A stretch of 64,000 nt of DNA, from contig NZ_KB905021.1 of NCBI RefSeq assembly GCF_000377405.1, positions 272,038 through 336,037 of the forward strand. Reading direction: 5' to 3'. The translations under genes and the position numbers were made by a program. The notes under the pieces were generated by a model that was not told the origin of the DNA, did not search any database, and worked only from the letters and a program-made list of their open reading frames with translations. Position 1 is the first letter of the stretch. Each line of letters starts with the position of its first letter. Source of the DNA: Thioalkalivibrio sp. ALE31. Lineage in GTDB: Bacteria > Pseudomonadota > Gammaproteobacteria > Ectothiorhodospirales > Ectothiorhodospiraceae. Shown one piece after another: positions 17,092 to 33,159 of the stretch.

Positions 17092-17130
17092 AAGGAGGGG
17101 TGGAGCCTACGTGTGGGGCCACCCCTTCTT
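17092..17130 (+). terminator. Hairpin after the possible gene at 16774
   Basis: AAGGAGGGGTGG (17092-17103) pairs with CCACCCCTTCTT (17119-17130) with a single G-T wobble and a 15-nt loop. A separate T-run is lacking, but the stem is strong and positioned as a terminator. Confidence 0.45.
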
Positions 17131-17380: not shown

Positions 17381-17438
17381 TTGACCAAGAATAAGCGATC
17401 GTTTAGCGTGTCCCTTTCAGAGGAAGCGATCGCTTATT
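17381..17438 (+). promoter_or_regulatory. Promoter with twin palindromic operators of the Fic gene
   Basis: The palindrome AAGCGATCGCTT at 17424-17435 and its near copy AAGCGATCGTTT at 17393-17404 are centred 31 bp apart, about three helical turns. A TTGACC at 17381-17386 with TAGCGT at 17404-17409 (17-bp spacing) would put the first operator in the promoter spacer and the second just before the ribosome site. The two halves also allow a long hairpin (AATAAGCGATCG with CGATCGCTTATT). The regulator could be the Fic protein's own C-terminal winged helix; that is inference. Confidence 0.6.
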
Positions 17439-17449
17439 TTTGAGGACCC

Positions 17450-18610
17450 ATGAAACGCGTAACCGGCACCTTTGAGCGCAGCACCGTGGCTGGGGAGTCA
17501 GTCGAGGCCTTCATTCCCCATCCGCTGCCGCCCAAGGATCCCCCTCTTGACCTCGGCGGCGAGCTCAGTTCGCTGCTCGGCCTGGCGAACGAGAGTCTGC
17601 GGTTGCTCGAATTGGCGGGCGACCTGATCCCGTCGGTCGAGTGGTTCGTATACGCGTTCGTTCGTAAGGAAGCGGTGCTCTCGGCGCAGATCGAAGGGAC
17701 GCAGGCAACGCTGATGGATCTGCTCGAGATCGAGGCCTCCGGGGAGGCGCCGGCCGACGCAGACGTTGAGGAGGTCTGCGGTTACGTCGATGCGCTCAAC
17801 TTCACCTGGGACGAGGTCGGGCGAGCAGACGGCCTGCCCCTCTCGATGCGCCTCCTGTCGCAGGCGCACGCACGGCTGCTTAGTGGTGCGCGCGGCGCGC
17901 AAAAACAGCCGGGCGAAGTACGGCGCTCGCAGAACTGGATCGGCGGGACACGCCCGGGCAACGCTGCGTTCGTGCCTCCACCCCCGCATCGACTCGGCGC
18001 GCTGCTCAGCGAGTTCGAGCGGGCAATCCACGACGAGAGTGAGCTTCCGCCACTCATCCGGGTAGGACTCCTCCATGCGCAGCTCGAGACGCTGCATCCG
18101 TATCTCGACGGCAACGGCCGCATCGGACGCCTGCTCATCACGCTACTACTGCGGCACTGGGATCTACTCACCCGGCCTCTTCTCTATCTGAGCCTGTTCC
18201 TCAAAAGGCAGCGTCAGGAATATTACCGGCGGCTCAGAGCGATACGTGACGAGGGCGACTGGGAGGGGTGGCTGTCGTTCTTCCTGGAAGGCGTGGCGGA
18301 GGTCGCTGACGAGGCCGTCGCCACCGCGCGCCGGCTTCACGTCATCATTGGCGAGAACCGAAATCGCCTCCTCGCCCGCGACGACGCGACTGTGTTGAGC
18401 CTCCGTTTGTTCGAACTACTTCCAGACCACCCAATTCTCACGGTGAACCGGGCCATGGAGCTCCTCGACTGCTCGCGGCCTGCGGCGGCCAAGGCCATGC
18501 GCGTCCTTGAGGCGGCGGAAATCGTACACGCGCTCGACGAGCGCAAGAAAAATAGGGCCGTCCTGTTCGAGGACTACCTTGCGCACTTGCGGCAAGGAAC
18601 CGATATCTAG
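17450..18610 (+). CDS. fic: Fic/DOC family protein, class II, with C-terminal winged helix
   Basis: A 386-residue Fic protein. The Fic active-site motif HPYLDGNGRIGR starts at His216; family enzymes use this His to transfer AMP or another nucleotide part to a protein hydroxyl. The inhibitory helix motif SAQIEG (Ser78, Glu82) lies N-terminal to the Fic core, making it class II, self-inhibited. The N-terminal region with LPPKDPPLDL and the VEWFVYAFVRKEAVLSA helix is usual for this subfamily. Residues about 300-380 form a winged helix (LTVNRAMELLDCSRPAAAKAMRVLEAAEIV), likely DNA-binding. GAGGA precedes the ATG, and twin palindromes lie just upstream. Confidence 0.93.
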   Translation: MKRVTGTFERSTVAGESVEAFIPHPLPPKDPPLDLGGELSSLLGLANESLRLLELAGDLIPSVEWFVYAFVRKEAVLSAQIEGTQATLMDLLEIEASGEAPADADVEEVCGYVDALNFTWDEVGRADGLPLSMRLLSQAHARLLSGARGAQKQPGEVRRSQNWIGGTRPGNAAFVPPPPHRLGALLSEFERAIHDESELPPLIRVGLLHAQLETLHPYLDGNGRIGRLLITLLLRHWDLLTRPLLYLSLFLKRQRQEYYRRLRAIRDEGDWEGWLSFFLEGVAEVADEAVATARRLHVIIGENRNRLLARDDATVLSLRLFELLPDHPILTVNRAMELLDCSRPAAAKAMRVLEAAEIVHALDERKKNRAVLFEDYLAHLRQGTDI

Positions 18611-18886
18611 CGACCATTACTCTGGCCGGCTGTGTTGCCTCATTAGGAAACGTTACCGACTTGTCCACTTCCCCCGATTAGGTCCACGCATCACTGGAGG
18701 TTTCCGGGTGTAGCGCCCAATCTTGGACCGGCATTCGAATCCTCGCAGTGATCTGTGTGCTTCCCGAATTCGGTGGGCGTCTACATTGACCGAATGGACG
18801 GGAGGGAGGCATTGCGTGTGGCCTTCCCATCCGCAGATCCGGCACTGTGTCGGTCAAATACCTGTTTTGGGTCGTCGGGTGGCCTC

Positions 18887-21800
18887 ATGAGTCAAGAAGA
18901 TCCCTTCCCGGATACGGCGCACACTGCTGATCTCTTTAGCGACTTCCCGGAAGAGTCGTGCGAGGGGCAGGGTGTTTGGCCACCGCCGGATCGTTTCCCG
19001 CTAAACGTCGACGGGCGGACGGTGCGCGAGCGGGTGATTGCGGACCTGGTGTCTGCGGACTCGCCGTTGGTGGTGACAGGCTACGGGGCGCTGGAAGAGC
19101 TCATTCGTCTGGAGGCGGATCTGGGGGAGGTTCGGCCGCTTCGCGTTCTCTTTGGTAACGAGCCGAGTGCGGGGGAGGGCGGTCACCGCAGTCTGAAGGC
19201 GTCGAGTTTTCCCGAAGAGGTCGAGCAGTACTGGCTGGATCGAGGGATCTCCCTGCGTCTGTCGGCCCGGCTGATTCATTTTCGGGAGCGACTCCGGGAG
19301 GGCGCCGTCGAGGCGCGGTACTGGCCCGACACGCAGCGGCCACTGCACGCCAAGATCTATCTCGGGGAGGGGGCTGTAACGCTCGGTTCGAGCAATTTCA
19401 GCAAGAATGGGCTGGAGCGTCAGCATGAGGCGAATGCGCGGTTCACTGCAACGGGTGAACCGAGGCGTTACCGCGAGGCGGCGGCGCTGGCCGAGCAGTT
19501 CTGGTCGCTTGGGCATGACTACACCGATGCGTTGCTCGCGCTGCTCGAGCGTCTGCTGCATGTCGTCGGGTGGCGCGATGCGCTGGCCCGCGCCTGTGGG
19601 GAGCTGCTGGAGGGTGACTGGGCGAAGGGTTTTCTGCAGCAGGTCGACCGCGAGGCTTTCCGTGCGCTGTGGCCGGCCCAGCGTCAGGGGATCGCACAGG
19701 CGCTGTATCTGCTGGATCGTCAGGGGGCGGTGCTGATTGCAGATGCGACGGGTTCCGGCAAGACGCGCATGGGTGCGCATCTCCTGCGGGCGCAGCAGGC
19801 GCGGATCCAGGGGGCAGGCGGGATGCCCCGCTCGGTCATGATTGCACCCTCGACGGTCGTGGAGGAGTGGGAGCGGGAGGCCTCCCGGGCCGACACCGCG
19901 CTGGATGTCTTTTCGGTTGGCCTGCTCAGTCACGGCAGCCGCAAGGCATGGCAGCTGGATGATGCCCTGAGGCGGGCGCGCCTGCTCGCCGTGGACGAGT
20001 GCCACAACTTCCACAATCGCCGCTCGCGCCGGACACGCCGACTGTTTACCAACCATCTTGCCGATGACGTGCTGCTGTTTACCGCTACGCCGATCAACCG
20101 GAATGTCGATGACCTAGTCCGGATCGCGGATCTCCTCGGCGCCGACAACCTGCAGCCGAGCACGCTGAAGGCCCTGGAGCGGGTCAATCGCCCCGGTCGT
20201 TGGCACGGACTGGGCGACGATGAGGCCGCCCGGCTGCGGGACGAGATCCGCACATTTACGATTCGCCGTACCAAGCGCATGTTCAATGCCCTGATTGATC
20301 GCGAGCCCGAAGCCTATCGGGATCACTCGGGACGGCCCTGCCGGTATCCGGAGCACCGCTCGTACAGCTATTCCCTGGGGGAACCGGCTGCCGACCGTGA
20401 ACGCGCCAGCCGAATCCGGGGGCTCCTGGACGAACTCTACGGTGTGGTCCAGATTCCGGTGGTCCTGGAACTGAGCGCCGTACAAAGGCAGCAGGGGCTC
20501 ACCGAGGACCAGTATCGCGACAACCTGCTGCTCGGGGCGCACAAGCTGGTCCGCTACCGGGTCATGGCGGCCCTGCGGTCTTCGCGTGCGGCATTGGTTG
20601 AGCACCTGTGCGGAACGGCGGTGGCTCGGGCCGAGTTCGGGTTGGAGCATTACGCCAAGTCCGCCGACACAGGAGATGTCTTGGGCAAGCTCAAGCAACC
20701 CGGGCGTGTGCCCGAGAACCGGCTGGGCGTGCCCTTGCCTGCGTGGCTTACCGATGCGGACGCCTGGGCATCAGCCCACGCGCACGATCACCGGATCCTC
20801 TCGCAGGTCCTGGACGAGGTGCGCGCCATGAGTCCGGCGCGGGAGCACGCCAAGGTCGCCCATCTGGCTAGACTGGCGGCGCGCCACGAACGGGTGCTGG
20901 CTTTCGACAGCCGTCTGATTACCATCGCGGCCCTGAGCGCGCAGCTCGAAGAGCGGCTGCCGGGCGTCGAGATCTGGCAGGCCACGGGCAGCGACGAGCG
21001 AAGCCGCCAGGCGGTACTCCGCGCATTTCGGCCGGGCGACGGCGAGCAGGCCGGCGTGGCGCTGTGTTCGGACAGTCTGTCCGAGGGGGTGAACCTGCAG
21101 GCGGCCTCGGCGCTGGTCCATCTCGACATGCCCTCGGTGATACGCGTGGCCGAACAGCGAACCGGACGCGTCGATCGTCTCGACAGCCCCCATGCCGAGG
21201 TCGAGGTCTGGTGGCCTCGGGATGCCGAGGAGTTCGCTCTCAGCGCCGATGCTCGCTTCCTGGACCGGGCCGATGCGGTGACGGAGCTTCTCGGGACCAA
21301 TCTCCCGTTGCCGGAAGACCTGCAGCAGCGGTCACGGGATAGCGTTGACGCTGACACCCTGATCCGCGAATACGAGCGTACCGCTCGCTCCATCGAGGAA
21401 GCCGAACCGCATGATGCCTTTGCCGCAGTGCGCGGACTGGTGGAAGGCGCGGGTGCGCTGGTCGAGCCCGACATTTATGAGTATTACCGTCAGCGCTCCG
21501 TGCGAGTGCTCTCAAGAGTCAGCGTGGTGGCCAGCGACACCGTCTGGGCCTTCTTCTGCCTGGCCGGCAGTGCGGACCGCGCACCGCGCTGGTTCTTCTT
21601 CTCCGGCCCGGATGCCGAAGCCACGACTTCACTGGACAAGGTGGCCGCCGCCCTTCGCGAGCGACTGGCGCCGGATCCACCCAACGGTGAAATCGACGAG
21701 CCGGCCGCGAGATGGCTGGCGCACTTTTCCGAACGCCTCCCGGAGGCCGAGCGGGCGCAGTTGCCGCTGCGCAAGCAACGTGCCCTGCAGGAGATGGCCG

Positions 21801-22153
21801 AGGTCCTCAAGGGCTTTTGCGAGGCGGCGGCTCGCCAGAGGGAGCAGACACGACTCGACGCCTATCTCGATCTGCGCAATCTGCTGGAGCGGAAGCCGGA
21901 GACTCTGACGGGCGGCGAGCCGGATTGGGAGGCACTGGCCAATCGCTGGCTGGAGCTCATCCGTCCCTACTGGTATCGCCGTCTGACCCAGCAGCGCCGG
22001 GGGTTTCTCCGCCTGCGGGATCTGCGCAAGGAGCTCATTGAGGCGGAAGCCGAACTGGGACCCGAGGTGCTGGAGGCGTTTTCCACCCTCCCGCTTCACA
22101 GCTCCGCCGAGGAGCGGGTAGTCGCGGCCATTCTCGGCATGCCCGTTCGGTGA
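18887..22153 (+). CDS. PLD-like nuclease / SNF2-type helicase fusion
   Basis: A 1088-residue multidomain protein. Residues about 50-210 contain a phospholipase-D-like domain: RPLHAKIYL with His154 and Lys156, then LGSSNFSKNGL. A superfamily 2 helicase follows: Walker A DATGSGKT (286-293), PSTVVEEWERE motif Ia, DECH box (370-373), TATPIN motif III (399-404) and EQRTGRVDR motif VI near 756-764. The C-terminal 300 residues are unassigned. PLD and SWI2/SNF2 domains co-occur in phage-defence loci (DISARM has separate PLD and SNF2 proteins), so defence or DNA repair is likely but not proved. ATG 18887 was chosen; a GTG at 18818 with GGAGG eight bases upstream is an in-frame alternative. Confidence 0.85.
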   Translation: MSQEDPFPDTAHTADLFSDFPEESCEGQGVWPPPDRFPLNVDGRTVRERVIADLVSADSPLVVTGYGALEELIRLEADLGEVRPLRVLFGNEPSAGEGGHRSLKASSFPEEVEQYWLDRGISLRLSARLIHFRERLREGAVEARYWPDTQRPLHAKIYLGEGAVTLGSSNFSKNGLERQHEANARFTATGEPRRYREAAALAEQFWSLGHDYTDALLALLERLLHVVGWRDALARACGELLEGDWAKGFLQQVDREAFRALWPAQRQGIAQALYLLDRQGAVLIADATGSGKTRMGAHLLRAQQARIQGAGGMPRSVMIAPSTVVEEWEREASRADTALDVFSVGLLSHGSRKAWQLDDALRRARLLAVDECHNFHNRRSRRTRRLFTNHLADDVLLFTATPINRNVDDLVRIADLLGADNLQPSTLKALERVNRPGRWHGLGDDEAARLRDEIRTFTIRRTKRMFNALIDREPEAYRDHSGRPCRYPEHRSYSYSLGEPAADRERASRIRGLLDELYGVVQIPVVLELSAVQRQQGLTEDQYRDNLLLGAHKLVRYRVMAALRSSRAALVEHLCGTAVARAEFGLEHYAKSADTGDVLGKLKQPGRVPENRLGVPLPAWLTDADAWASAHAHDHRILSQVLDEVRAMSPAREHAKVAHLARLAARHERVLAFDSRLITIAALSAQLEERLPGVEIWQATGSDERSRQAVLRAFRPGDGEQAGVALCSDSLSEGVNLQAASALVHLDMPSVIRVAEQRTGRVDRLDSPHAEVEVWWPRDAEEFALSADARFLDRADAVTELLGTNLPLPEDLQQRSRDSVDADTLIREYERTARSIEEAEPHDAFAAVRGLVEGAGALVEPDIYEYYRQRSVRVLSRVSVVASDTVWAFFCLAGSADRAPRWFFFSGPDAEATTSLDKVAAALRERLAPDPPNGEIDEPAARWLAHFSERLPEAERAQLPLRKQRALQEMAEVLKGFCEAAARQREQTRLDAYLDLRNLLERKPETLTGGEPDWEALANRWLELIRPYWYRRLTQQRRGFLRLRDLRKELIEAEAELGPEVLEAFSTLPLHSSAEERVVAAILGMPVR

Positions 22154-22169
22154 TCCGGCGCCGGTCGGA

Positions 22170-22931
22170 TCACCCTGCGTCTTCGGATAGATGGCTCATG
22201 GGCTCCATGCACGATCCACAGATAACCTCGGTTTCTGGTCGCGCCCAGACGCGCGCCTCGCAGGTCGGGCAGTTCATGCGCAGACGGGGATCCGGGCGTG
22301 GCGTGGGCGGCGCGAACACCGCCGGTTTGTCGGCATCGTCGCGCATTGCGATCGTCTCGGCCGGCGCGGGGGCGCTGGCGACGGCCAGACCCTGGTGGGC
22401 CAGCATCTCCTGCACTTGGGCAAGCGATTCCGGATCGGTGGGAGCATGCCGGTCGAACCAGGGCAGTTCGAACCCGGTGGCCAGCAGGTCCGAGCAGGCC
22501 CGGGCGAACGGACCGTCGGGCTGGATGTAGTGCGTGACCCGGCGTCCGGTCTGTTTGCCATCCGGCAGGCCGGTATCGCTCGGCACCAGACCGATTGCTT
22601 CCATCTTGCCGACCCACTCCCGGTTATGGTGGTTTGATCGGCTCGGCCGGCCGAAGCACTCCTGCCAGTGATGCACCATCTCGTGTACCAGCGTGGACAG
22701 CGCGACCTCCAGCGGATTCAGGGTGAAGTACCCCGGATGAACACCCAGCTCATGGACGATCGTGCCATCCGAGGAGATGAAGCGTTCGGCGTGGTGGTAA
22801 CCTCGCTGCCGGCGGGAGCTGCGCAGCGTGATCAGACAGGGAGGCAATTCGTTGTCGAACAGCCGTTCGTTGAAATGATCGAAGGCCCGCTGCAGGGCGG
22901 AGTACATCGACAGGGTGGGGGAGTCGGTCAT
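22170..22931 (-). CDS. SprT-like zinc metalloprotease-domain protein
   Basis: A 253-residue SprT family protein. The active-site helix LSTLVHEMVHHWQECFG holds HExxH, with a further His in NHHNREWVGKMEAIGL. The N-terminus MYSALQRAFDHFNERLFDNELPPCLITL is the SprT start. The C-terminal CPTC-x-CGSC zinc ribbon matches SprT and Spartan proteins, which degrade DNA-crosslinked proteins in eukaryotes; bacterial members on mobile DNA are uncharacterised. It is convergent with the helicase gene, 16 nt apart. ATG at 22931 is the natural start. Confidence 0.9.
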   Translation of the reverse strand: MTDSPTLSMYSALQRAFDHFNERLFDNELPPCLITLRSSRRQRGYHHAERFISSDGTIVHELGVHPGYFTLNPLEVALSTLVHEMVHHWQECFGRPSRSNHHNREWVGKMEAIGLVPSDTGLPDGKQTGRRVTHYIQPDGPFARACSDLLATGFELPWFDRHAPTDPESLAQVQEMLAHQGLAVASAPAPAETIAMRDDADKPAVFAPPTPRPDPRLRMNCPTCEARVWARPETEVICGSCMEPMSHLSEDAG

Positions 22932-23080
22932 GGTGCGTTTCCGGCATCGAGTCTTGAGTCCCGAGATTGTATCGCCCCGTTTTTGTCACAAATCCGGTCA
23001 CAAACCTGGCGAGCCGAGACCTGTCCCGTCCAGGATCGAGGTCGTCCATAGGATCGTTTCACTAAATGCTTGGAGAGAAA

Positions 23081-23107
23081 TTGAAGGGTTATATATCAAA
23101 CCCTTAA
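23081..23107 (+). promoter_or_regulatory. AT-rich inverted repeat upstream of the HipA-like gene
   Basis: AAGGGTT (23084-23090) and AACCCTT (23099-23105) form a 7-bp inverted repeat around ATATATCA, in an unusually AT-rich block 45-70 nt before the start codon. It could be an operator or overlap a -10 element. The HipA-like protein carries its own N-terminal HTH and might bind here; this is inference. Confidence 0.4.
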
Positions 23108-23151
23108 TGAGGTAGTATCTTCTCAATAATCATTTCAATAGGCAGGTTCGG

Positions 23152-24546
23152 ATGAGGAGCAAGCGAGAGGCAGCGCATCAGCGGCTCGGCCAGGCGCTTG
23201 CCAGGCTCGCCCCGGCGCGCGCAGCCGATCTTGCCCGCGAACTGGGGCTGTCGGTCCCCACCCTTCACCGACTGCTGCAGGAGACGCCCGAGCCCGTGCT
23301 TGCGGCCGGGCGGGCCCGGCGCACTCGCTACGCTCTGCGCAGAGCGCTGCGAGGCGACTTCGCGCCCACTCCCATCCGTGTGATTGATGAAGCCGGCCAG
23401 CCGCACGAGTTCACGGAGCTCTCGCCCATCCAGCCGCAGGGCTGCCATGCCGACTTCGGTGGCTCGGATTGGCCTTTGGAGGATGACGACGAGAACCCCG
23501 AAGGATGGTGGGCCGGTCTGCCATACCCTTTGTACGATATGCGCCCCCAGGGCTACCTCGGGCGCCAGCTGGCGCATCGCTTGCAAGACACGCTCCAGGT
23601 GTCACCTAATCCAGAGGCCTGGAGTGACGACGATCTTCTGTGGGTTCTGAGTCGTGTGGGCTTCGATCTCCCGGGCAACCTGGTCGTTGGTGATGCCGCA
23701 TTCAAGGGCTGGCAGAAGGCCCGCCTGGATCCCCCTCCGATTCTCGGGGCGGATGAACTCGAAGGGATGTATGTGAAGGCAGCGGAGGAGGCCATCTCGC
23801 TGGGCCTTGCGGGCTCCAGTGCCGCGGGTGAGTTCCCGAAGTTCACCGCCCTTCGGGACCTGCAGGGCAGTCATAGTCCGCACGTCATCGTGAAGTTTTC
23901 GGGTGCGGACGAGTCCGCGACCGTGCAGCGCTGGTCCGATCTGCTGGTGGCGGAGCATCTGGCACTGGAGGCGGTCGCAGGGCTGCCCGGTGTGCAGAGT
24001 CCGCCCAGCCGAATCCTCCAGCAACAGGGCCGCACGTTCCTGGAGATCGAGCGCTTCGATCGCCACGGACTGTTCGGCCGCAGCGCGGTGGTGACGCTGG
24101 AGACCGTGAACGCGGCCTTGCTCGGTCATGCGCCTTCGGCATGGGACGCCCTCGCCCAGGGGCTCGCCGACAAGCGTCTGCTGGCGCCGGAGGCGGTTGC
24201 AGCCATCCGTCACATCACCTGGTTCGGAAGACTGATTGCCAATAACGACATGCACCCGGGCAACCTCGCCTTTCGACCGGAGGGCGGCCGGCTCCTCCTG
24301 TGCCCGGTCTACGACATGCTCCCGATGGCGTACGCGCCGCTCCCGGGTGGGGAACTGCCGCGCGTGACGTTTGAGCCTGCCCTACCATTGCCTCGTGAAC
24401 ATGGCGTGTGGGTCACCACTTGTCACGCCGCGATCGGCTACTGGCAAACCGTGGCGGATGACACCCGCGTCAGTTCCACGTTTCGCAGGATTGCATCCGA
24501 AAACGCCCTCGAAATGCAAAGGCGCCTGGCACTTGTTGCGCCCTGA
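23152..24546 (+). CDS. yjjJ: HipA-family toxin, YjjJ/HipH type
   Basis: A 464-residue single-gene HipA homologue. Residues 1-60 form a winged helix (AADLARELGLSVPTLHRLLQ) where classical systems have a separate HipB. The middle LPYPLYDMRPQGYLGRQLA is the HipA N-subdomain motif; the kinase part has FPKFTALRD with a conserved Lys, VIVKFSG, IERFDRHG, the catalytic loop NNDMHPGNLAF and CPVYDMLPM (the DFD-like metal motif). This architecture matches E. coli YjjJ/HipH. HipA kinases phosphorylate aminoacyl-tRNA synthetases; YjjJ's target is less clear. No hipB gene is adjacent. A degenerate copy of its 3' end lies at 25410-25470. Confidence 0.88.
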   Translation: MRSKREAAHQRLGQALARLAPARAADLARELGLSVPTLHRLLQETPEPVLAAGRARRTRYALRRALRGDFAPTPIRVIDEAGQPHEFTELSPIQPQGCHADFGGSDWPLEDDDENPEGWWAGLPYPLYDMRPQGYLGRQLAHRLQDTLQVSPNPEAWSDDDLLWVLSRVGFDLPGNLVVGDAAFKGWQKARLDPPPILGADELEGMYVKAAEEAISLGLAGSSAAGEFPKFTALRDLQGSHSPHVIVKFSGADESATVQRWSDLLVAEHLALEAVAGLPGVQSPPSRILQQQGRTFLEIERFDRHGLFGRSAVVTLETVNAALLGHAPSAWDALAQGLADKRLLAPEAVAAIRHITWFGRLIANNDMHPGNLAFRPEGGRLLLCPVYDMLPMAYAPLPGGELPRVTFEPALPLPREHGVWVTTCHAAIGYWQTVADDTRVSSTFRRIASENALEMQRRLALVAP

Positions 24547-24578
24547 TCGCCGGTCGTGCTGTGCCAACCGACCGCTGG
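24518..24578 (+). repeat. 61-bp imperfect direct repeat, copy A (hipA-like 3' end)
   Basis: This covers the last codons of the HipA-like gene and 32 nt beyond. About 52 of 61 positions match 25410-25470. The CopG-RelE module sits between the two copies. Confidence 0.75.
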
Positions 24579-24624
24579 CGTCTACCCTGCTTCGGGTTGG
24601 TTTCAGCCCGGTTGAGTCGCAAGC

Positions 24625-24692
24625 CTGTATACAGCCTGTGTATACAGAGATCTGATAGTGGACTCGCAGGGGAAAGAGACGATAGAGTATCG
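24625..24692 (+). promoter_or_regulatory. Palindromic candidate operators of CopG-RelE
   Basis: CTGTATACAG (24625-24634) and TGTATACA (24639-24646) are two palindromes centred 13 bp apart; a third, CGATA-GAG-TATCG, is at 24680-24692, 30 nt before the CopG start. Ribbon-helix-helix antitoxins repress their own promoters at such short repeats, so one or more of these probably serve autoregulation. Confidence 0.5.
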
Positions 24693-24722
24693 AAAGGTAT
24701 TACCATGTGATAAGAGGCCGCT

Positions 24723-24995
24723 ATGGCAACCTCCCTGAAGATTGACGACGTGTTGAAAAGTCGGGTCCAGCATCTCGCCAGCCAGCGTCGGCGCTCGTCT
24801 CACTGGATCATGCTCGAAGCGATTCGGCAATATGTCGAGCGCGAAGAAGCTCGCGAGGGCTTCAGGCAGGAAGCCCTCGCGAGCTGGGCTGCTTATCAGG
24901 AAACCGGCCGACACGTGACCGGGCAGGAAGCACGCGCCTGGTTGAACACCTGGGGCACGGATGAGGAAAAGGCTGCTCCGGAGTGCCACAAGTAA
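24723..24995 (+). CDS. CopG-family ribbon-helix-helix antitoxin
   Basis: A 90-residue antitoxin-type protein. The N-terminal ATSLKIDDVLKSRVQHLA strand-helix followed by SSHWIMLEAIRQYVEREE is a ribbon-helix-helix DNA-binding unit; the rest (about residues 45-90) is acidic and likely wraps the toxin. It overlaps the toxin start by 13 nt, a tight coupling usual for type II systems. It would repress its own promoter, consistent with the palindromes upstream. Confidence 0.9.
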   Translation: MATSLKIDDVLKSRVQHLASQRRRSSHWIMLEAIRQYVEREEAREGFRQEALASWAAYQETGRHVTGQEARAWLNTWGTDEEKAAPECHK

Positions 24996-25276
24996 TCGTC
25001 ACCGAAGGAGCGCTGGATGGTCTGGACCGATGCCGGCGTTTTCTTTCCACCAAATCGCCGGATGCCGCCCGGCGAGCAGCCCAGGTGATCGAACGGCAGC
25101 TCCTGCTGCTGGAAACGTCACCGCATATGGGGCGCCCCGATGCCGAAGTACCCGAACTGCGCGAGTTGCTGATCGATTTCGGTGATTCCGGATTCGTAGC
25201 CCTCTATCGACACGATCCGGCCGAGGACACGGTTTACGTGCTGGCCTTCCGACATCAGAAAGAGGCGGGCTACTGA
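24983..25276 (+). CDS. RelE/ParE-family toxin
   Basis: A 97-residue toxin of the RelE/ParE fold. It starts at GTG 24983 inside the antitoxin gene. Family features are QVIVTEGALDGLDRCRRFL, the helix DAARRAAQVIERQLLLLETSPHMGRP, PELRELLIDFGDSGFVALYRHD and a final VYVLAFRHQKEAGY strand. The C-terminal RHQKEAGY matches ParE-like members, which poison gyrase; RelE-like members cleave mRNA on ribosomes. Which activity applies cannot be told from sequence. Confidence 0.9.
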   Translation: MPQVIVTEGALDGLDRCRRFLSTKSPDAARRAAQVIERQLLLLETSPHMGRPDAEVPELRELLIDFGDSGFVALYRHDPAEDTVYVLAFRHQKEAGY

Positions 25277-25409
25277 TAAGGACCGCACGCACCGGTTGTC
25301 GGGACGGCTCCGTACCACGGAACTTCGATCAGAGTGCTTCGTTTCAGGAATGTTGCGCATGGCTGGGGTGCCATTGAACCGCTTCTGCGGACACCTTTCA
25401 GCTTGTAGC

Positions 25410-25470
25410 AAAGTCGCCAGGCACTCGTCGCACCCTGATCGCTGGTCGTGCTGTGCCAATCGGGCGCTGG
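25410..25470 (+). pseudogene. Vestigial 3' end of a hipA-like gene (repeat copy B)
   Basis: Translated in the matching frame the copy ends SRQALVAP-stop, aligning with QRRLALVAP-stop at the end of the intact gene; an in-frame TAG precedes it, so it is dead. Similarity continues about 32 nt past the stop codon. It is either a duplicated flank created when the CopG-RelE module arrived or the remains of a second hipA-like gene. Confidence 0.55.
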
Positions 25471-25556
25471 TGCTGCCCTTCCTCCGATAGGCGAGCCCGC
25501 ATCGGCCTGATTGAAGACGGTGGAACCGCTCCGACCGTTTTGGCCGTCTTAGCCTG

Positions 25557-25592
25557 CATGTGCGGTTGTTCCTGCTACACGTGCTGCCGTCT
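25557..25592 (+). repeat. 36-bp imperfect direct repeat flanking the Fic pseudogene (left)
   Basis: Matches 27042-27077 at 30 of 36 positions, including the exact 14-mer ACGTGCTGCCGTCT. The pair brackets the second Fic gene and may mark the ends of a moved module. Confidence 0.55.
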
Positions 25593-25910
25593 CTGCTTGC
25601 TCACATTCATCTCCAGGTACCCATCCGTGTGGCTTAACTGGGGTGTCCGCTGTCATTGGACCACTTCACACCGGCACTCCACTGATAAGTGGTGAGTCCG
25701 CCTTGCTGCATGCCTCAGTCCACGAGGAAACTCCATCCGCGGGTTTCGTCCCGCATCCAGGTGCATGATCCGGTGACTCTTCCCAGAGGGCCGACGAATC
25801 GGCTTTGCAACACGGGAATCATTGCGATCTCCTTGGTTTTTTCGTTTATCGCCCATGCATGATTGAAGTGGGGTAGAACCCGTCTACGCATTGGAAATGC
25901 GGAGATTGGC

Positions 25911-27037
25911 GTGCGATATATCTGGGAACTGACCGGCTGGCCCCACTGGCAGTGGGACGCGGAACATATCGCGCCGATGCTGGCCGCGGCCGCGCGCGAG
26001 CAGGGCAGGCTGCTCGGGCGGATGCAGGGGTTGGGTTTCGCGTTGCGCGAGGAAGCGTCGCTGCGGGTGCTGTCGGAGGATATCGTGGACTCCGGCGCGA
26101 TCGAGGGCGAACGTCTCCCCATGGATCAGGTGCGCTCTTCCCTGGCACGTCGCCTCGGCCTGGAGGCCGGGGGACCGGTCGCTTCAGGGCGAGATGTCGA
26201 CGGCATGGTCGAACTGATGCTGGATGCCACGAAGGCCTTTGATCGTGAGCTGACAGTGGATCGGCTGTTCGACTGGCATGCGGCCCTGTTTCCGACGGGG
26301 CGTAGCGGAATGACGTGGATTCCGGTCGCGCGCTGGCGGGATGCCGAAGAAGGGCCGATGGGTGTGGTGTCGGGTCCCGTTGGCCGGGAGACGGTGCACT
26401 TCTCCGCGCCACCGGCCGAACGAATCCCGGGGGAGGTCGACGCTTTCTTCGCCTGGTTTAAGACACCCGGCCCGCTGGATCCGCTATTGGTGGCGGGGCT
26501 GGCTCATCTCTGGTTCGTGACGATTCACCCCTTCGCGGATGGAAACGGGCGTATCGCGCGGGCGATCGCCGATATGGCGCTGGCACGAGCGGATGGTTCG
26601 GCGGAACGTTTCTACAGCATGTCCGGGCAGATCCTTCGGGAACGCAGCGACTATTACGCGATCCTGGAGCGGACCCAAAACCAGGGGGGGGGCTGGACAT
26701 CACCCTGTGGCTGGAATGGTTCCTGGGCTGCCTGCAGCGTTCGCTGGCCAGCGCTCAGGATGCACTCGAGCACGTGCCGTTCAAGGCGCAATTCTGGGAG
26801 CGGTTCGCCACGGAGCCGCTCAATGCCCGACAGATCAAGGTGCTCAATCGTCTGCTGGACGCCTTCGAGGGTCGGATGACCTCTTCGCGTTGGGCCCGGA
26901 TGGCCAAGTGTTCGCAGGACACGGCGCAGCGTGACATTGCGGACCTGGTGGATCGAGGTGCATTGAAAAAGAACCCGGGCGGTGGACGCAGTACGAGCTA
27001 TTCCTTGCCGGACACGCGCGGTTTCTTCTCGTTTTAA
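25911..27037 (+). pseudogene. fic: Fic protein (DUF4172 type) split by a frameshift at a 9-G tract
   Basis: From GTG 25911 (GGAGA five bases upstream) the protein starts MRYIWELTGWPHWQWD, the DUF4172 N-terminus, has the inhibitory motif SGAIEG (Ser61, Glu65) and the Fic motif HPFADGNGRIAR from His206. After RTQNQ the frame meets nine G at 26684-26692. The downstream part continues in another frame as LDITLWLEWFLGCLQRS and a winged helix ending GFFSF at 27037. Seven or ten G would restore one protein of about 375 residues. As read, translation stops at 26879 after unrelated sequence. Phase variation, decay or a sequencing error are all possible. A longer TTG-started frame begins at 25863. Confidence 0.85.
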
Positions 27038-27041
27038 TCTA

Positions 27042-27077
27042 CATGAGCGGTTTCTCGTGCCATACGTGCTGCCGTCT
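27042..27077 (+). repeat. 36-bp imperfect direct repeat flanking the Fic pseudogene (right)
   Basis: Second copy of the repeat at 25557-25592 (30 of 36 identical), five nt past the end of the Fic frame. Confidence 0.55.
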
Positions 27078-27130
27078 ACGAATTTCGAGTCGCGGAGCGA
27101 TCGAGAGTATTTGAGATATTCGCTGTAATC

Positions 27131-27208
27131 GTAGTCAGGCTACTGGTTAAACCAGTCGTCTTGGTTGATGTTGGGCGAAATTGTGTGGTTTATTCGTAGT
27201 GTGGCTAC
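27131..27208 (+). promoter_or_regulatory. Paired inverted repeats, candidate AbiEi operators
   Basis: GTAGTCAGGCTAC (27131-27143) and GTAGTGTGGCTAC (27196-27208) share 11 of 13 bases; each is a GTAG/CTAC inverted repeat with a 5-nt spacer, and they are 65 bp apart. AbiEi antitoxins repress their promoter by binding inverted repeats upstream, as shown for Streptococcus AbiE. The right copy overlaps the proposed GTG start at 27201. Confidence 0.6.
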
Positions 27209-27938
27209 GATAACGAGATCCAATCTAAAGGCGCTCTATACCAGAGTGCCTCCGGGAACGCCGCTGACCACGGCCGACCTCAATGAGCTGGGCATTTCGG
27301 CCGACCTGGCGGTCTATTACGTCCGGTCGGGGTGGCTGGAACGCCTCGCGCGGGGTGTCTATTGCCGCCCGGGTGAGGATCTGGGGTTGGAGCCCAGTCT
27401 TGTCATGTTGCAGCGAAAGTTTCCGGGCATGCACGTGGGGGGCAAGTCAGCCCTGGAGTGGTACGGCATTCGGCACTACGTCATGCGCCAACCCACGCTG
27501 CAGTTGTATGGCTGGGCCTCTGGGCGGCTTCCGGGCTGGTTTTTCGAGCGGTTTCCGGCCGAATATCATCGCAAGCGCCTATTCAACGAGACGCCGGAGG
27601 CCATGCTGCATGTCGGCCCCTTCGAACATCAGGCGGGGGCACCTGATGTTGCGGCGCCGGAACGGGCGCTCCTTGAGCTCCTCAGTGAAGTGGGTGTACG
27701 GCAACCGTTGCAGGAGGTACGCGAGATCGTCCAAGGGACCTACAGTCTGCGAGCCAATGTCCTTCGCGAGCTCCTGTGCAAGACGAAGAGCATCAAGACT
27801 GTTCGTCTGGCTCTGCAGTTGGGACGCGAGTTCTCGCTCCCCTGGGCGGCTCAATTGGATCCCGTCGAGCTCCCAACCGGCAGTGACCGGCCCTGGGTAT
27901 CCGGCACCGGCGATGATCTGCTGGTCCTCAAGCCATGA
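27201..27938 (+). CDS. abiEi: AbiEi-type antitoxin/transcriptional repressor
   Basis: About 245 residues. The N-terminal MATITRSNLKALYTRVPPG and TTADLNELGISADLAVYYVRSGWLERLARGVYCRPGED form the AbiEi winged helix; the C-terminal domain holds GGKSALEWYGIRHYV and the APERALLELLSEVG segment of the AbiEi family. AbiE is a type IV toxin-antitoxin and abortive-infection system in which AbiEi represses transcription and neutralises toxin effects. The start is uncertain: GTG 27201 gives the usual N-terminus, but no ribosome site is visible there or for the ATG at 27168. The stop overlaps the toxin ATG by four bases. Confidence 0.87.
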   Translation: MATITRSNLKALYTRVPPGTPLTTADLNELGISADLAVYYVRSGWLERLARGVYCRPGEDLGLEPSLVMLQRKFPGMHVGGKSALEWYGIRHYVMRQPTLQLYGWASGRLPGWFFERFPAEYHRKRLFNETPEAMLHVGPFEHQAGAPDVAAPERALLELLSEVGVRQPLQEVREIVQGTYSLRANVLRELLCKTKSIKTVRLALQLGREFSLPWAAQLDPVELPTGSDRPWVSGTGDDLLVLKP

Positions 27939-28849
27939 ACTCGGCCTACCTTGAAACGGCGCGCCTGCTGACGCAGGTCGCTCCCTTCGTGTTCGCGGAC
28001 GATACCTTCGCGTTGAAAGGTGGAACGGCCATCAACCTCTTCGTCCGCGACATGCCGCGGTTGTCCGTGGATCTCGATCTGGTGTTTCCCGATCACGCGG
28101 CATCGCGAGACGAAGCACTGGCTCGCATCAACGCCGCCATTGAGCGTATGGGGAGGCAGTTGGCCGAGCGTGGCTTCCAGACGTTTGCCCCCACAACCGA
28201 AGCCGGAGCCACCAAGCTTCTGGTTCGGCGCGGTCATGTCGAGGTCAAGATCGAAGCGAACTACGTCCTGCGCGGTACCGTTCAGCCGGTCCGTTCGGCT
28301 TCGTTGAGCCCTCTAGCCCGCGACAGCCTTATGGCCGACCTCGACATTCCAGTGGTGTCACTCGAGGACCTCTATGGCGGCAAGCTTGTTGCGGCCCTAG
28401 ACCGGCAGCACCCACGGGATCTCTTCGACGTCATGCAGCTCTTTGAGCATGAGGGGATCACACCGGGCATTCGCCAAGCCGCTGTCGTTTACCTAGCCAG
28501 CCATAATCGCCCCGTACATGAAGTGCTGTCTCCGGCGCTACGGAACATTGAGCGGGACTACCGGCATAACTTCCAAGGCATGACAGCCGAGCCGGTGCCA
28601 ATAAGCGACTTGCTGACGACACGCGATCGACTTATCCAGGGTCTCCACCAAGGGCTGGAAGACCGCGAGCGAAGGTTTCTACTCTCTCTGGTCGAGGGAG
28701 CGCCCGACTGGAGCCTCATGGATATCGCGCATGTCGAGCAGTTGCCGGCCATCCGCTGGAAGCTTCAGAACCTGGGTCGCCTCCGGGAGAACAGCCCGCA
28801 GCAATTTGTCGAGCAGGCCGACGCGCTGCGGCAACTCCTCAACCTTTGA
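27935..28849 (+). CDS. abiEii: AbiEii-type nucleotidyltransferase toxin
   Basis: A 304-residue toxin of the DNA polymerase beta-like nucleotidyltransferase superfamily. Motif I is KGGTAINLF (residues 28-36), motif II is RLSVDLDLVF with Ser44, Asp46 and Asp48, and motif IV is LEDLYGGKLVAALDRQHPRDLFD. Relatives (AbiEii, MenT) transfer nucleotides to tRNA 3' ends or bind GTP to stop growth during phage infection. It is coupled to abiEi by ATGA. It is the last gene before the right island boundary. Confidence 0.93.
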   Translation: MNSAYLETARLLTQVAPFVFADDTFALKGGTAINLFVRDMPRLSVDLDLVFPDHAASRDEALARINAAIERMGRQLAERGFQTFAPTTEAGATKLLVRRGHVEVKIEANYVLRGTVQPVRSASLSPLARDSLMADLDIPVVSLEDLYGGKLVAALDRQHPRDLFDVMQLFEHEGITPGIRQAAVVYLASHNRPVHEVLSPALRNIERDYRHNFQGMTAEPVPISDLLTTRDRLIQGLHQGLEDRERRFLLSLVEGAPDWSLMDIAHVEQLPAIRWKLQNLGRLRENSPQQFVEQADALRQLLNL

Positions 28850-29224
28850 GGGTGCCTAGGGTCGCTGTTTCCCCACGATGCTGGAACAGACATCGGGGAG
28901 CCATCTTTGTCCCGGATGCCGAGTGTTGAATGTCATGAGCGGGGCTCGTCAGGCACGCGCTGACGGCTTCATTGGCGCCCGTTTCGCGCCCGCGAAACGA
29001 CGGTTGGGGCCCGGCTTGGAGAGTTCATCGAGCTCAATGTGGAAGATCATCTGATGGTCAGGCTGGCACACATTCTGTGCCACCGCGGTACAGTTTTATG
29101 CGCGCTTGGAGGGCGCAATCGGCGCGAATTGGTTTTTTGGTGGATGGGGTTGCGGCCCTTTGGAATCGCTTCATAGAGCCGTTTAAGGCCGATCCAGGGT
29201 GTTGGGAAACCATCTGAGGGTGCG
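28850..29224. other. Non-coding right end of the island
   Basis: 375 bases between abiEii and the right attachment repeat. No frame resembles an integrase or excisionase, and no hairpin terminator or direct-repeat set was seen. Confidence 0.45.
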
Positions 29225-29271
29225 CACTCATAATGATGGGGTCCCCTGTTCGAATCAGGGCGTAGCCACCA
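29225..29271 (+). repeat. Right attachment repeat (3' fragment of tRNA-Met)
   Basis: An exact 47-base copy of 10516-10562: CACTC of the anticodon arm through the T arm to CCA. The 5' 30 bases of the tRNA are absent, so it is not a functional tRNA. The sequence to its right continues as core DNA. Confidence 0.9.
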
Positions 29272-29317: not shown

Positions 29318-29438
29318 GTTTGGGGCCCCGGGTGGGGCGGTGTTGTATTGCCGGTATGCAGGGGCTCGGATAGACTGCGCGCCGGGTCGCGTGCCTGCGC
29401 GCGGGCGGCCCCTCAAGGGAGCAACCTCGGACGAATCC

Positions 29439-29648
29439 ATGAAACGCTACGGAATCCGCATCCGCCTGCCGGAAGGCAGCACCATGGCCATGCCGCACCT
29501 GCTGGGGCCGGACTGGGAATCCTATCGCTGGTACGACAGCGAACAGGCGCGCGAGAAGGCGCTGGCCGACATGCAGCGCGACCTCCCCAACTACCGCAAG
29601 GGTGATCACGTCGCCCAGGTCCTCGAGCGCGTCGAACGCGACGCCTGA
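29439..29648 (+). CDS. Hypothetical small protein
   Basis: A 69-residue protein starting MKRYGIRIRLPEGSTMAMPHLL, with WESYRWYDSEQAREKALADMQR and a final helix QVLERVERDA. It is soluble and charged, with no known family that I can name. The pattern RYGIRIRLP.. plus a W-Y-D-E-AR helix looks like a conserved small domain rather than random sequence. A clear ribosome site is missing (AAGGGAG is about 17 nt away), so coding status is moderate. Confidence 0.55.
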   Translation: MKRYGIRIRLPEGSTMAMPHLLGPDWESYRWYDSEQAREKALADMQRDLPNYRKGDHVAQVLERVERDA

Positions 29649-29859
29649 CCGCCTCCGTCTGTCCGCCGGTCGCCCGACCGGTGCTCGCATGATCACGTCA
29701 TCCTGACCGACTGGATGCCGCGAACGGCGTCCTTCGCATCTTTGTGCCTCCTCGTGGTTGAAACATGCCCCCCTGCGTGCTTTAGTGCGGGGCACAAACG
29801 GAATTGCATCACATTTTTGGGGCCTATTCCGGCCGCTCGGACTGCAGGAGTCGTTGACC

Positions 29860-32109
29860 ATGCCGACAGAAGACACCAGCGAGAACATGGACCACGCAGT
29901 GCAGACCGAGCCGGAGGCGACCCGGACTGCCGATACCGAGACCTCGATCCGCAATCCATCGCGGGCGGCCCGGGCGACCCAGCCGCGCAACGCGGCGCGG
30001 TCGAATGTCCTGGAGGGTCAGGTCGAGCGCGGCGGCGAGCCCCACTACTTCACCGAACGCGATCTGGACCGGATCCTCGAGAATCTGGACCACCTGCGCA
30101 ATTCGGTCTTCCCGCGCCTGACCAAGGGCAGCCCGACCGAGGAACAAAAGCAGCAGTTCTTCCCGTCGGTGTGTCTTATTGGCGTTGGCCGCTGCGGTTC
30201 GAACATCGCGCTGGACGTGGCGGCGCTGGTGCACAGTGCGCGCTCCAACTATCTGCGCGAACTGGATAACGAGGAGGCCGGTGGGCGCGAGAAGGAAGGC
30301 CGTCCGCTGCGCTGGATTCGCAAGAGCCTGAATCTGCCGCCAGCCAACGCGGTGAAGCCCGTCTTCCTGATCGAGCCGATGGTGATGCTGGGCGACCTCG
30401 ACAAGGACATCGAGGGCCGCATCCGCTTCTCCAACCGGGCGGGGCAGAACAACTTCATCGACAACTACAACAAGATGAAGATCATGGACCTGTCCGAGGT
30501 GCACGCGGGTGGCGCGGGCAATGCCCCCATCCTGGGCCAGTACCTTGCGCGCATCATTCTGAACAAGGACACCGACCAGTTCGCCAACGAGGACTGGAAG
30601 TTCATCCATTCCTATCTGATCGATTCCTGCGGTATTAAGGCGAATCAGTCACGACTGTACTTCTATATCTTCAGTGCCGGCGGCGGCACCGGCTCCGGGA
30701 TGGCCTCCGAATTCGGCCTCGCGCAGCAGTACTCCTATATGCGCAAGACCTTCGATCCCAAGCTGGAGAAGCGCGAGGCCGCGAATCGCGACCATTCCTT
30801 CGTGTTCGAGCCGATCTTCGCGGCGGGGATCTGCATCCTGCCGAACATCCAGGACAACCGCGTCGAGATGTCCGAGGCGCTGCACATCAACGCGGGGCGT
30901 CTGCTGTGCAAGTACCTGGCGGAGGAATGGGACTTCTCCTACAACTTCGAGGCCGAAGAGACGCGTGACGAGGACATGATGCATCGCATCCGGCCGTGGA
31001 ACGCGATGATGCTGATATCCAACGACATCATGCGCTACGCGGAGGAGACCGACGACGGCAACATCCGCCACGTCGACGTGAACGCGATGGAGCGTTACGC
31101 CAACCAGTACATCTCCCAGCAGATCTTCAACATCCTGACCGCGCAGGCGGTGACCACCGACTACGACGAGGACTACTTCCGGCGTGCCGGGGTGGATATC
31201 GGCGAAACCATTCGCCTGGATGCCAACGACCTGTTCATGAGTCTGGCCGGTCCGGTTGCGGTCGCCTACGCGGAATCGGAGGTGACTACTGGCGAGGAGG
31301 CTTCCTCCAAGAGCTCTGCGCTGGATATCGACGACTTGTTCTTCCGCTCGATCGACCTGCCCCACTTCAACAAGCAGACCGAGGCCATCGAAGGGATCAG
31401 CCTGCTGCCGATCGACGCCCCGCGCTACCGCGAGGCACTGAAGGGGTACAAGGAATCGGACATGGACGCGACGCACCTGCGCGATCTGCATTTCTTCAAG
31501 AACTGCTCGTCCATTGTCACGATTCTGTCCCTGCCGAAGGACTACAAGCTGTCCTACATGGACCTGAATCGCCTGAAGTCCCACCTGAACGGCCTGTTCC
31601 CGAATACCACACTCAAGCGCTACGCCCTGGTTATTGGCGCCTCGGCCAATCTGTCGCTGACCACCCTGGTGGTGAAGAGCCCGTGCCTGTCGGACGACTT
31701 CCTGACCCTGTTCGTCGCCTACATCAAGCGCTGCTTTGCCAACGACAAGACGCGCTTCGACGACACCCTGGACCATGCGGTGCTGGATCTCATCCGGGCC
31801 GAGGAGTTCGACGAGGCGCGCATCGACGAGATGCTGAACGAACACGAGAACCCCACGCGCATCCTCGATACCAACTGGTACGCGATCAAGCCGATGTACG
31901 AGAAGAAATACCGCGAGATGTGCAGCAACGAGAAGAGCTTTGTCTCGATTAACGACATCCGTCTGAGCCGCGAGAACGTCAAGCAGGCGATCCGTTACCT
32001 GCGCGAGATCTACCGTCACCGCACGAGCAAGACGCAGATCATCAGCCTGAACGACGGCGGCAAGGCGGCTACGGCGGCGTCGAAGCGCCGCGCCAGCAGC
32101 AAGAAGTAG
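29860..32109 (+). CDS. Divergent tubulin/FtsZ-like GTPase
   Basis: A 749-residue protein. Residues 1-60 are low-complexity. From about 100 a tubulin-type GTPase core can be followed: T1 VCLIGVGRCGSN (GVGxxGSN at 108-115), the signature T4 loop FSAGGGTGSGMASEF (GGGTGSG at 274-280), a strand FAAGICILPN near 320-329, T6 ISNDIM (Asn388-Asp389, as in FtsZ PNDRLL), and a T7-like IRLDANDLF (Asp454, Asp457, spaced as in the FtsZ NxDFAD loop). A second domain includes YALVIGASANLSLTTLVV, then a long C-terminal helical region and a basic tail. It is about twice the size of FtsZ. CAGGAG at 29845-29850 supports the ATG. It stands alone, so its role (filament, membrane remodelling, DNA positioning) is unknown. 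Confidence 0.82.
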   Translation: MPTEDTSENMDHAVQTEPEATRTADTETSIRNPSRAARATQPRNAARSNVLEGQVERGGEPHYFTERDLDRILENLDHLRNSVFPRLTKGSPTEEQKQQFFPSVCLIGVGRCGSNIALDVAALVHSARSNYLRELDNEEAGGREKEGRPLRWIRKSLNLPPANAVKPVFLIEPMVMLGDLDKDIEGRIRFSNRAGQNNFIDNYNKMKIMDLSEVHAGGAGNAPILGQYLARIILNKDTDQFANEDWKFIHSYLIDSCGIKANQSRLYFYIFSAGGGTGSGMASEFGLAQQYSYMRKTFDPKLEKREAANRDHSFVFEPIFAAGICILPNIQDNRVEMSEALHINAGRLLCKYLAEEWDFSYNFEAEETRDEDMMHRIRPWNAMMLISNDIMRYAEETDDGNIRHVDVNAMERYANQYISQQIFNILTAQAVTTDYDEDYFRRAGVDIGETIRLDANDLFMSLAGPVAVAYAESEVTTGEEASSKSSALDIDDLFFRSIDLPHFNKQTEAIEGISLLPIDAPRYREALKGYKESDMDATHLRDLHFFKNCSSIVTILSLPKDYKLSYMDLNRLKSHLNGLFPNTTLKRYALVIGASANLSLTTLVVKSPCLSDDFLTLFVAYIKRCFANDKTRFDDTLDHAVLDLIRAEEFDEARIDEMLNEHENPTRILDTNWYAIKPMYEKKYREMCSNEKSFVSINDIRLSRENVKQAIRYLREIYRHRTSKTQIISLNDGGKAATAASKRRASSKK

Positions 32110-32145: not shown

Positions 32146-33159
32146 TCAGGGAAGGGACAGCGGCTCCATCAGGTAGCACAGGCAGTCCTGGGCGATGACC
32201 CGGGTGTCCAGTGTGAGCATGGACGGCATGGCCGGGCGCTTGAGCCGGATCTCCTGGCCGGCGCGCTCCAGATAATCCCCGGTGACCTCGGAGCCGTCCT
32301 CGGCGATCGCGACCAGCGGCTCGTCGGCATCTTCGTGCACCTGTACCAGACGGGAACCGGCGGGCAGCAGCTGGAAGTTCAGGCCGTCGAGATCGGGTTC
32401 CAGGCGCACGTCGTGCTGTGCCTCCAGCCCGGCCTGCAAGCCGGGGCGCACCCGGACCTGCGCGACGGTGTGGAAGAGCTCGATGGCGCCCTCGCGTGGC
32501 GGCTCGGGCACGAAGTGGTCCAGGTGCAGCACCGCGTCGATCATCTCCCGGGCGTGGTCCACGCCGGCGGCGTCACCGGGGTGGCCGCACTCCAGAGTGA
32601 CGGCCGGCGCGATGCGTGCCAGGGCCATGGAGGCAACCCCGCGCGGCCGGGTGAAGTAGACCACGGTGCGCCCGAACAGCGCGGCCAGGTTCAGAAACGG
32701 GGACTCCAGGCGATTGATGCAGGCGTAATGGGGGTTGCGCCCGGTGTTGTTGTGCAGGTCGATCGCGGCGAACAGGCCGCGTCCCTCCAGGCGGCGGCAG
32801 AGCTCGGCAAAGACATCGGCCTCGCGCGAACCGGCCTGTTCGGTGCCCGGCCAGATGCGATTGAAGTCCGGCTGGTCGTCCAGGTGGCGCTGATTGACGG
32901 CCGCCGCCTGCGGGTTGCCCACGATCAGCGTCAGGGCGCGTGGCAGCGGCCGCCCGGTGTAATGACGCAGGAGCTGCTGTACCGCGTGCAGGCCCACCGG
33001 TTCGTTGCCGTGCAGCAACAGGACCACGGCCACCGCGGGTTCGCGCTGGCCTTCCAGGTGGATCAGGGCCGGGCCGGGCACGCACTGGTGCAACGTCTCG
33101 GGCGTGGCTTCGAGGAAGCCGTCGGGGAGTTCGAAGTGTTCGATGATGGATTGCGTCAC
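32146..33159 (-). CDS. Succinylglutamate desuccinylase/aspartoacylase-family zinc hydrolase
   Basis: A 337-residue M14-type zinc hydrolase of the AstE/AspA family. Zinc and catalytic residues are in LLLHGNEPVG (HxxE), PDFNRIWPG, AAIDLHNNTGRNPHY and VTLECGHPG (Glu general base). The C-terminal half is a beta-rich domain. Family enzymes cleave N-acyl amino acids such as succinylglutamate or acetylaspartate. The start is GTG at 33159 with TGAGGAAA upstream. It follows the GCS2-like gene by 8 nt in what looks like a three-gene operon; the arginine succinyltransferase genes are absent, so a different acyl amino acid is likely. Confidence 0.85.
   Translation of the reverse strand: MTQSIIEHFELPDGFLEATPETLHQCVPGPALIHLEGQREPAVAVVLLLHGNEPVGLHAVQQLLRHYTGRPLPRALTLIVGNPQAAAVNQRHLDDQPDFNRIWPGTEQAGSREADVFAELCRRLEGRGLFAAIDLHNNTGRNPHYACINRLESPFLNLAALFGRTVVYFTRPRGVASMALARIAPAVTLECGHPGDAAGVDHAREMIDAVLHLDHFVPEPPREGAIELFHTVAQVRVRPGLQAGLEAQHDVRLEPDLDGLNFQLLPAGSRLVQVHEDADEPLVAIAEDGSEVTGDYLERAGQEIRLKRPAMPSMLTLDTRVIAQDCLCYLMEPLSLP

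Follow-up and report, generated by a model that had tools for sequence, protein, structure and literature searches.

Besides an ordinary FtsZ of 385 aa encoded elsewhere in its genome (G000:C4), Thioalkalivibrio sp. ALE31 has a gene for a protein of 749 aa with motifs of the tubulin/FtsZ GTPases. Two questions are raised by this locus: what kind of GTPase the protein is, and what a bacterium that already has FtsZ might do with it. The window referred to below is the whole stretch of DNA analyzed, 64,000 nucleotides of contig NZ_KB905021.1.

The gene and its family

The full open frame extends from 29758 to 32109 on the plus strand. Starting at the ATG at 29860, which by eye is preceded by CAGGAG, it gives 749 aa; the in-frame TTG upstream at 29758 is the poorer start and was judged less likely. 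The ORF of 749 residues claimed for 29860-32109 in the preliminary description is therefore present and complete on the plus strand. It is a genuine gene and not a chance frame, because relatives are encoded by 560 stretches of a species-level collection (80 of the 560 were kept) and because dN/dS of its core to three relatives is 0.025-0.10. The gene stands alone within the window, as had been stated, and has one copy in the genome. Its immediate surroundings are as follows.

29361..29648, plus strand: small conserved gene, upstream flank and one edge of a presence/absence site
29715..29859, plus strand: promoter-like TTGAAA...TTTAGT and ribosome site, by eye; similar in three Thioalkalivibrio carriers
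29860..32109, plus strand: FtsZl2-family GTPase gene, 749 aa, ATG start, stop ending at 32109
32146..33159, minus strand: AstE/AspA-like gene, convergent downstream, other edge of the presence/absence site

By eye, 44 upstream regions showed no promoter motif common across genera, a weak negative because the start codon was wrongly picked in at least 8 of the 44.

The preliminary description suggested a GTPase of unknown kind. That suggestion does not hold, as the protein fits FtsZl2, a proteobacterial family that Makarova and Koonin described from sequence in 2010, having found it by the motif GGGTG(S/T)G (PMC2875224). The prototype, PFL_1302 of Pseudomonas fluorescens Pf-5, gave an HHpred E of 0.0033, has T1, T4, T6, T7 and H7, and ends in a region of about 300 aa without relatives; the available part of that account gives no function and no associated genes (PMC2875224), whereas GGDEF neighbors were enriched in some lineages here. 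We matched the window protein to the family on architecture, range and motifs, and to PFL_1302 by its description. Like the family as described there, it is proteobacterial, has T1, T4 and putative T6 and T7 with inserts between T1 and T4, shares its genome with FtsZ, and has a C-terminal region (274 aa) with no known relatives. Best-segment identity to named Pseudomonas loci was 70-75%. The statement that the function is open still stands: a literature search, with subscription journals mostly outside its range, gave no work on FtsZl2 function. Of the membrane-vesicle, magnet and gas-vesicle-like systems mentioned in the preliminary description, none is suggested by anything that came up in the analysis. 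New here are the wide distribution in Pseudomonas, a history of gain and loss with a scar, the strength of selection on the gene, and a single hint at function that can be tested.

It was fair to say that the protein is unlike FtsZ, TubZ and BtubA/B, although the family had been described in 2010. With bacterial FtsZ the window protein shares T1, T4 and, in its T7-like motif, the DxxD spacing, but it is about twice as long, has no Pfam FtsZ_C match and is missing from close relatives. A search with PF00091 at E ≤ 0.001 hit a single place in each of the 14 genomes searched, three of them from the Pseudomonas-containing genus, and every hit was FtsZ by sequence. In Pseudomonas, FtsZl2 is accordingly a second GGGTG(S/T)G family, separate from FtsZ and FtsZl1. 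The GGGTGSG form of T4 is shared with tubulin, BtubA/B, TubZ and PhuZ; FtsZl2 differs from these in having no Pfam Tubulin_C match and no representative among the plasmid and phage records searched. The T3-T4 region of FtsZl2 gave a match to FtsZl1 (Tubulin_2, PF13809) in every one of 101 members. FtsZl1 differs in its coiled coil, its operons with vWA, OmpA and GTPase genes, and, in the available description, its lack of a clear T6-T7 (PMC2875224). At E ≤ 0.001 Tubulin_2 was found in 0 of 100 sampled genomes, the window genome included, and a study of FtsZ/tubulin evolution, in its available text, sets the Tubulin_2 group aside (PMC9871819).

Motifs and probable membership of the tubulin/FtsZ superfamily

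The T1, T4, T6-like and T7-like motifs claimed in the preliminary description were found in the claimed order, at aa 108, 274, 385 and 453.

30181..30204, plus strand: T1 loop GVGRCGSN, aa 108-115; aligns to FtsZ T1 with T4 masked
30508..30522, plus strand: putative T3 loop GGAGN, aa 217-221; aligned to FtsZ GAG..P
30679..30699, plus strand: T4 signature GGGTGSG, aa 274-280; PF00091 and PF13809 matches below cut-off
31012..31029, plus strand: putative T6 loop LISNDI, aa 385-390; invariant in alignment A4
31216..31233, plus strand: putative T7 catalytic loop LDANDL, D-x-x-D, aa 453-458; invariant in A4
31285..32106, plus strand: C-terminal region, 274 aa, no recognized domain, short variable tail

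All residues of T4, T6 and T7, and all residues of T1 but the second, are invariant in 101 aligned sequences that include the window protein. T4 has its tubulin-type form here, GGGTGSG, and we take GGAGN to resemble the T3 of tubulin. The cysteines of FPSVC, RCGSN and DSCG in the GTPase region are also invariant, which is presumably unusual for an FtsZ relative. A Pfam scan of the C-terminal region gave no confident match. A conserved basic C-terminal tail was considered and rejected, as the charge of the tail was positive in 26 of 59. At the DNA level, a degenerate pattern for GGGTG[ST]G had 3 matches in the genome, namely FtsZ, the window gene and a third whose frame reaches a stop codon after 37 further residues; its reversed control also had 3, so the pattern alone is no evidence.

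For the window protein itself the E values were 0.0065 with PF00091 and 0.11 with Tubulin_2, both matches falling below cut-off; the Tubulin_2 scores were 12.1 bits for the protein and 14.3 bits for its GTPase region against a cut-off of 27. Across the GTPase regions of the 101 members, with E up to 1, Tubulin_2 matched in all 101 and Tubulin in 100, with best E values of 5.5e-5 and 2.2e-4, respectively. The remaining Pfam families matched at most 3 members, except for DUF6562, which matched weakly in 59. In the HMM search against these two families, which the preliminary description proposed as a check, nearly all members match, the matches of the window protein being below cut-off.

The family was also compared by hhalign with a broad FtsZ profile built from 15 bacterial and archaeal sequences. 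One match placed T3-T4 and another placed T1, and for each of two alignments the FtsZ matches beat 150 of 150 column shuffles. Unmasked reversed alignments scored nearly as high (29.0 vs 30.9, and 30.9 vs 31.8) because the glycine motif is near-palindromic, and the T4 match is inseparable from the reversed control. When T4 was masked on both sides, T1 still matched the FtsZ profile with a score of 32.1, compared to 17.2 for the reversed alignment and with 0 of 100 shuffles as high. When T1 and T4 were both masked the match was lost (23 of 100 shuffles were as high), and the putative T3 was non-significant. The hhalign probabilities of the FtsZ profile comparisons were low, 2-15%, and that of alignment A1 against gammaproteobacterial FtsZ alone was 2.1%. 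We regard T1 as independently supported and T4 as supported by its literal motif and by Pfam. The T3, T6 and T7 assignments are putative, made by eye and from invariance; the T7-like LDANDL is invariant and in the correct order, and was aligned by none of the profile tests.

A sequence search of PDB structures gave nothing for A1 and only terpene synthases for A4, which were rejected as structural relatives at E 2.3. AF2 models had low confidence, with a pLDDT of 37.7 for the 691-aa core (28 sequences) and 37.5 for the 379-aa GTPase region (101 sequences). This is attributable to shallow alignments, the hhalign Neff being 1.6-1.8 and the lowest identity among 124 aligned FtsZl2 cores 61%. Such models, together with the sub-threshold Pfam matches, the high reversed controls and the uninformative DNA motif count, could be expected of a non-tubulin Rossmann-like protein that carries GGGTGSG by chance. 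That reading is very unlikely, given that T1 matches FtsZ with T4 masked and lies in the correct order relative to T4, and given the HHpred E published for the prototype (PMC2875224). The window protein very probably belongs to the tubulin/FtsZ superfamily. The original call of a tubulin/FtsZ GTPase is favored by Pfam over the members and by the masked T1 match; each of these tests is weak, and all are consistent.

The distance from T1 to T4 is long, and this or the additional C-terminal region could prevent a lattice from forming; the C-terminal tail is not conserved. These features would suit a protein of tubulin fold that binds GTP as a scaffold or switch without polymerizing. However, none of the 101 sequences departs from the T7-like DxxD, an invariance most readily understood if the motif completes the site of a neighboring subunit, and we consider a non-polymerizing protein unlikely.

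Distribution, history and selection

FtsZl2 is common in Pseudomonas and patchy elsewhere. Of 249 species sampled from the genus containing Pseudomonas sp. ML96, 163 had a match, a count that takes in two weaker matches (G1085 and G1256). Matches were also found in 7 of 96 genomes of relatives, in 12 of 397 in a sample of the phylum (one of them, G423, a broken copy), in 2 of 369 in a sample of the class, and in 28 of 295 in one order, where G423 and G598 had broken pieces only. Broken ones aside, carriers have one place for FtsZl2 per genome. No more distant relative was found at E 0.01 in the 369 class genomes. A probable tubulin/FtsZ relative is thus widespread in the Pseudomonas-containing genus; it is single-copy, many close relatives lack it, and tractable Pseudomonas are among its carriers. 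The broken or partial copies in G423 and G598 (L099-L101, L172-L175) contain stop codons and are probably recent pseudogenes.

At the Thioalkalivibrio site FtsZl2 lies between the small conserved gene and the AstE-like gene, and it is in place in two other aligned carriers. In 10 of 10 fetched non-carriers the site is empty, with 35-85 bp between the aligned flanks. One non-carrier (G029) keeps a scar of 20 nt identical to the 3' end of the window gene (L184, about 1680-1705, minus strand), of which the nearest aligned carrier, G025, has 16. In an AstE tree of 28 rows, from 28 of the 30 genomes of the genus, all 6 Thioalkalivibrio carriers fall in one 14-row clade (support 93/93). At least 3 presence/absence changes are needed on this tree, and well supported branches force 2. 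One gain with later losses, for instance, would account for this, the numbers of gains and losses being unfixed by the AstE tree.

Between families, FtsZl2 sequences resembled each other more closely than FtsZ sequences did in 22 of 24 genome pairs, and within families less closely in 4 of 4. Reading horizontal transfer from pairwise identity was dropped, since an invariant-site plateau would give the same pattern, and a gene tree was used for this question. In the midpoint-rooted FtsZl2 tree, Thioalkalivibrio groups with Marinobacter and Halomonadaceae (support 100/100), and Paraglaciecola and Cellvibrio stand among Rheinheimera/Alkalimonas-type sequences, with some forks open. This one gene tree, with its midpoint root, suggests horizontal transfer of FtsZl2 into Thioalkalivibrio.

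The dN/dS values of the FtsZl2 core to the three relatives were 0.025, 0.059 and 0.10, compared to 0.107 and 0.184 for AstE in the first two of these genomes. Purifying selection on the core is strong, and FtsZl2 is dispensable yet nearly frozen in sequence.

Taken together, we think it probable that FtsZl2 is a dispensable, horizontally moving and most likely filament-forming chromosomal GTPase that acts outside division. By analogy with the superfamily, FtsZl2 would bind GTP through T1-T4-T6 and polymerize head to tail, with the site for GTP hydrolysis completed by the T7 loop (DxxD) of the adjoining subunit, as in FtsZ and tubulin. Its work would probably lie outside division, since an ordinary FtsZ is present in the same genome. 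It would be a self-contained accessory function, gained into one Thioalkalivibrio clade (probably by horizontal transfer), which selection holds almost constant in its carriers and which has been lost by deletion on more than one occasion.

The tubulin-type T4 and the evidence of transfer would also suit a TubZ/PhuZ-like segregation filament left behind by a plasmid or phage. No match to FtsZl2 was found on mobile DNA, however, in 72,556 plasmid records, 50,697 phage records or viral contigs; no partner gene is common to the genera examined, and the flanks in Thioalkalivibrio are chromosomal. We hold this origin to be extremely unlikely. As a separate observation, a plasmid gene of Marinomonas algicola annotated as hypothetical (L202 551-1513) has a match to FtsZ at 38% that covers 45% of the query and is possibly, judging from this match, a divergent plasmid gene of FtsZ/TubZ type.

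Gene neighbors and possible roles

A survey of gene neighbors, also proposed in the preliminary description, was informative in part: no synteny partner was common to the genera examined, but GGDEF was enriched beside the gene in some lineages. The survey covered 137 loci, some genomes twice, and 59 after dereplication at 93% identity. Of the resulting 118 neighbor slots, 109 were scanned; another 8 were left out because of length or distance, and in 1 no gene had been called. Gene calling used a crude codon method. ETF genes near FtsZl2 were common to related genera, and a pseudouridine synthase adjoined it in several Rheinheimera-type loci and in Thalassomonas.

GGDEF was the commonest Pfam domain among the immediate neighbors (14 of 109), followed by ETF-QO (10 of 109), MFS (8 of 109) and pseudouridine synthase (7 of 109). 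In third-away genes a local HMM found GGDEF in 0 of 99, and the domain was absent from the 25 families listed. With homologues collapsed, GGDEF occurred in 5 of 58 neighbor families vs 0 of 71 third-away families. Adding L261, which had been skipped for length and is assumed to be a family of its own, makes this 6 of 59 vs 0 of 71; taking the background to be 1% gives a binomial P of 3e-5, and taking it to be 2% gives 1e-3. In Pseudomonas, two unrelated enzymes, MHYT-GGDEF-EAL and NMT1-GGDEF, each lie on either side of FtsZl2 on the same strand. Further cases occur in Alkalimonas (L019, convergent), in Paraglaciecola (L065, 1.5 kb upstream on the opposite strand) and in families f152 (L249) and f64 (L261).

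If it holds, this neighborhood is the only functional hint found for FtsZl2. It could mean that FtsZl2 serves c-di-GMP signaling as a cytoskeletal partner, with filaments that position the neighboring diguanylate cyclase or phosphodiesterase or are switched by it, coupling cell organization to the motile-sessile switch; we regard this as a tentative possibility. Slightly more doubtful is a tubulin-type filament that organizes or reads out local c-di-GMP, beside which unrelated diguanylate cyclases and phosphodiesterases repeatedly became direct neighbors. If true, FtsZl2 would be the cytoskeletal arm of the motile-sessile switch in many Pseudomonas species.

Several results count against a link to c-di-GMP. 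There is no GGDEF/EAL gene within 10 kb of FtsZl2 in the window, nor one beside it in most non-Pseudomonas loci. Most Pseudomonas GGDEF cases are one locus where the MHYT enzyme is resident, with or without FtsZl2: 57 genomes have the enzyme without FtsZl2, and the 6 that were fetched keep it at the same locus, with other genes or nothing in the place of FtsZl2. Across the 249 species, both genes were found in 130, FtsZl2 only in 33, the MHYT enzyme only in 57 and neither in 29, a weak co-occurrence (P 0.02, uncorrected for kinship). GGDEF was also noticed before it was counted, so that the data used for the count were those that had prompted the hypothesis, and the genes were called crudely. 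Moreover, ETF-QO, MFS and pseudouridine synthase recur beside FtsZl2 as well.

In Pseudomonas loci without FtsZl2 (L289, L291, L292 and L293), the slot beside MHYT-GGDEF-EAL holds, for example, a protein of about 1400 aa of unknown kind or a protein of 363 aa that by eye is glycosyltransferase-like. The slot is a possible gene-swap site.

Upstream of the gene, a tRNA-Met lies at 10486-10562 of the window, and the 3' part of this tRNA recurs as an exact copy of 47 bp at 29225-29271. The 18.7 kb between tRNA-Met and repeat (10486-29271) is a probable genomic island, with genes for Fic/SoFic, an SNF2-PLD helicase, a HipA-like protein, Fic/DUF4172 and AbiEi/AbiEii; no integrase was found among the subset of ORFs scanned there. 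FtsZl2 as part of this mobile island was rejected, the gene being just outside the tRNA repeat.

Being patchy, moved and lost, and lying 0.6 kb beyond a defense/toxin-antitoxin island in the window, FtsZl2 could be thought of as a single-gene anti-phage or stress-abortive GTPase. It lies outside the tRNA-bounded island, however, with other flanks in other genera, and PADLOC gave no match. A match in 163 of the 249 species sampled from the Pseudomonas-containing genus is a high frequency for a defense gene, and the nearly frozen sequence sets FtsZl2 apart from most defense genes. A defense role is accordingly improbable. In G025, the tRNA that bounds the island in the window lies directly ahead of the small gene that adjoins FtsZl2.
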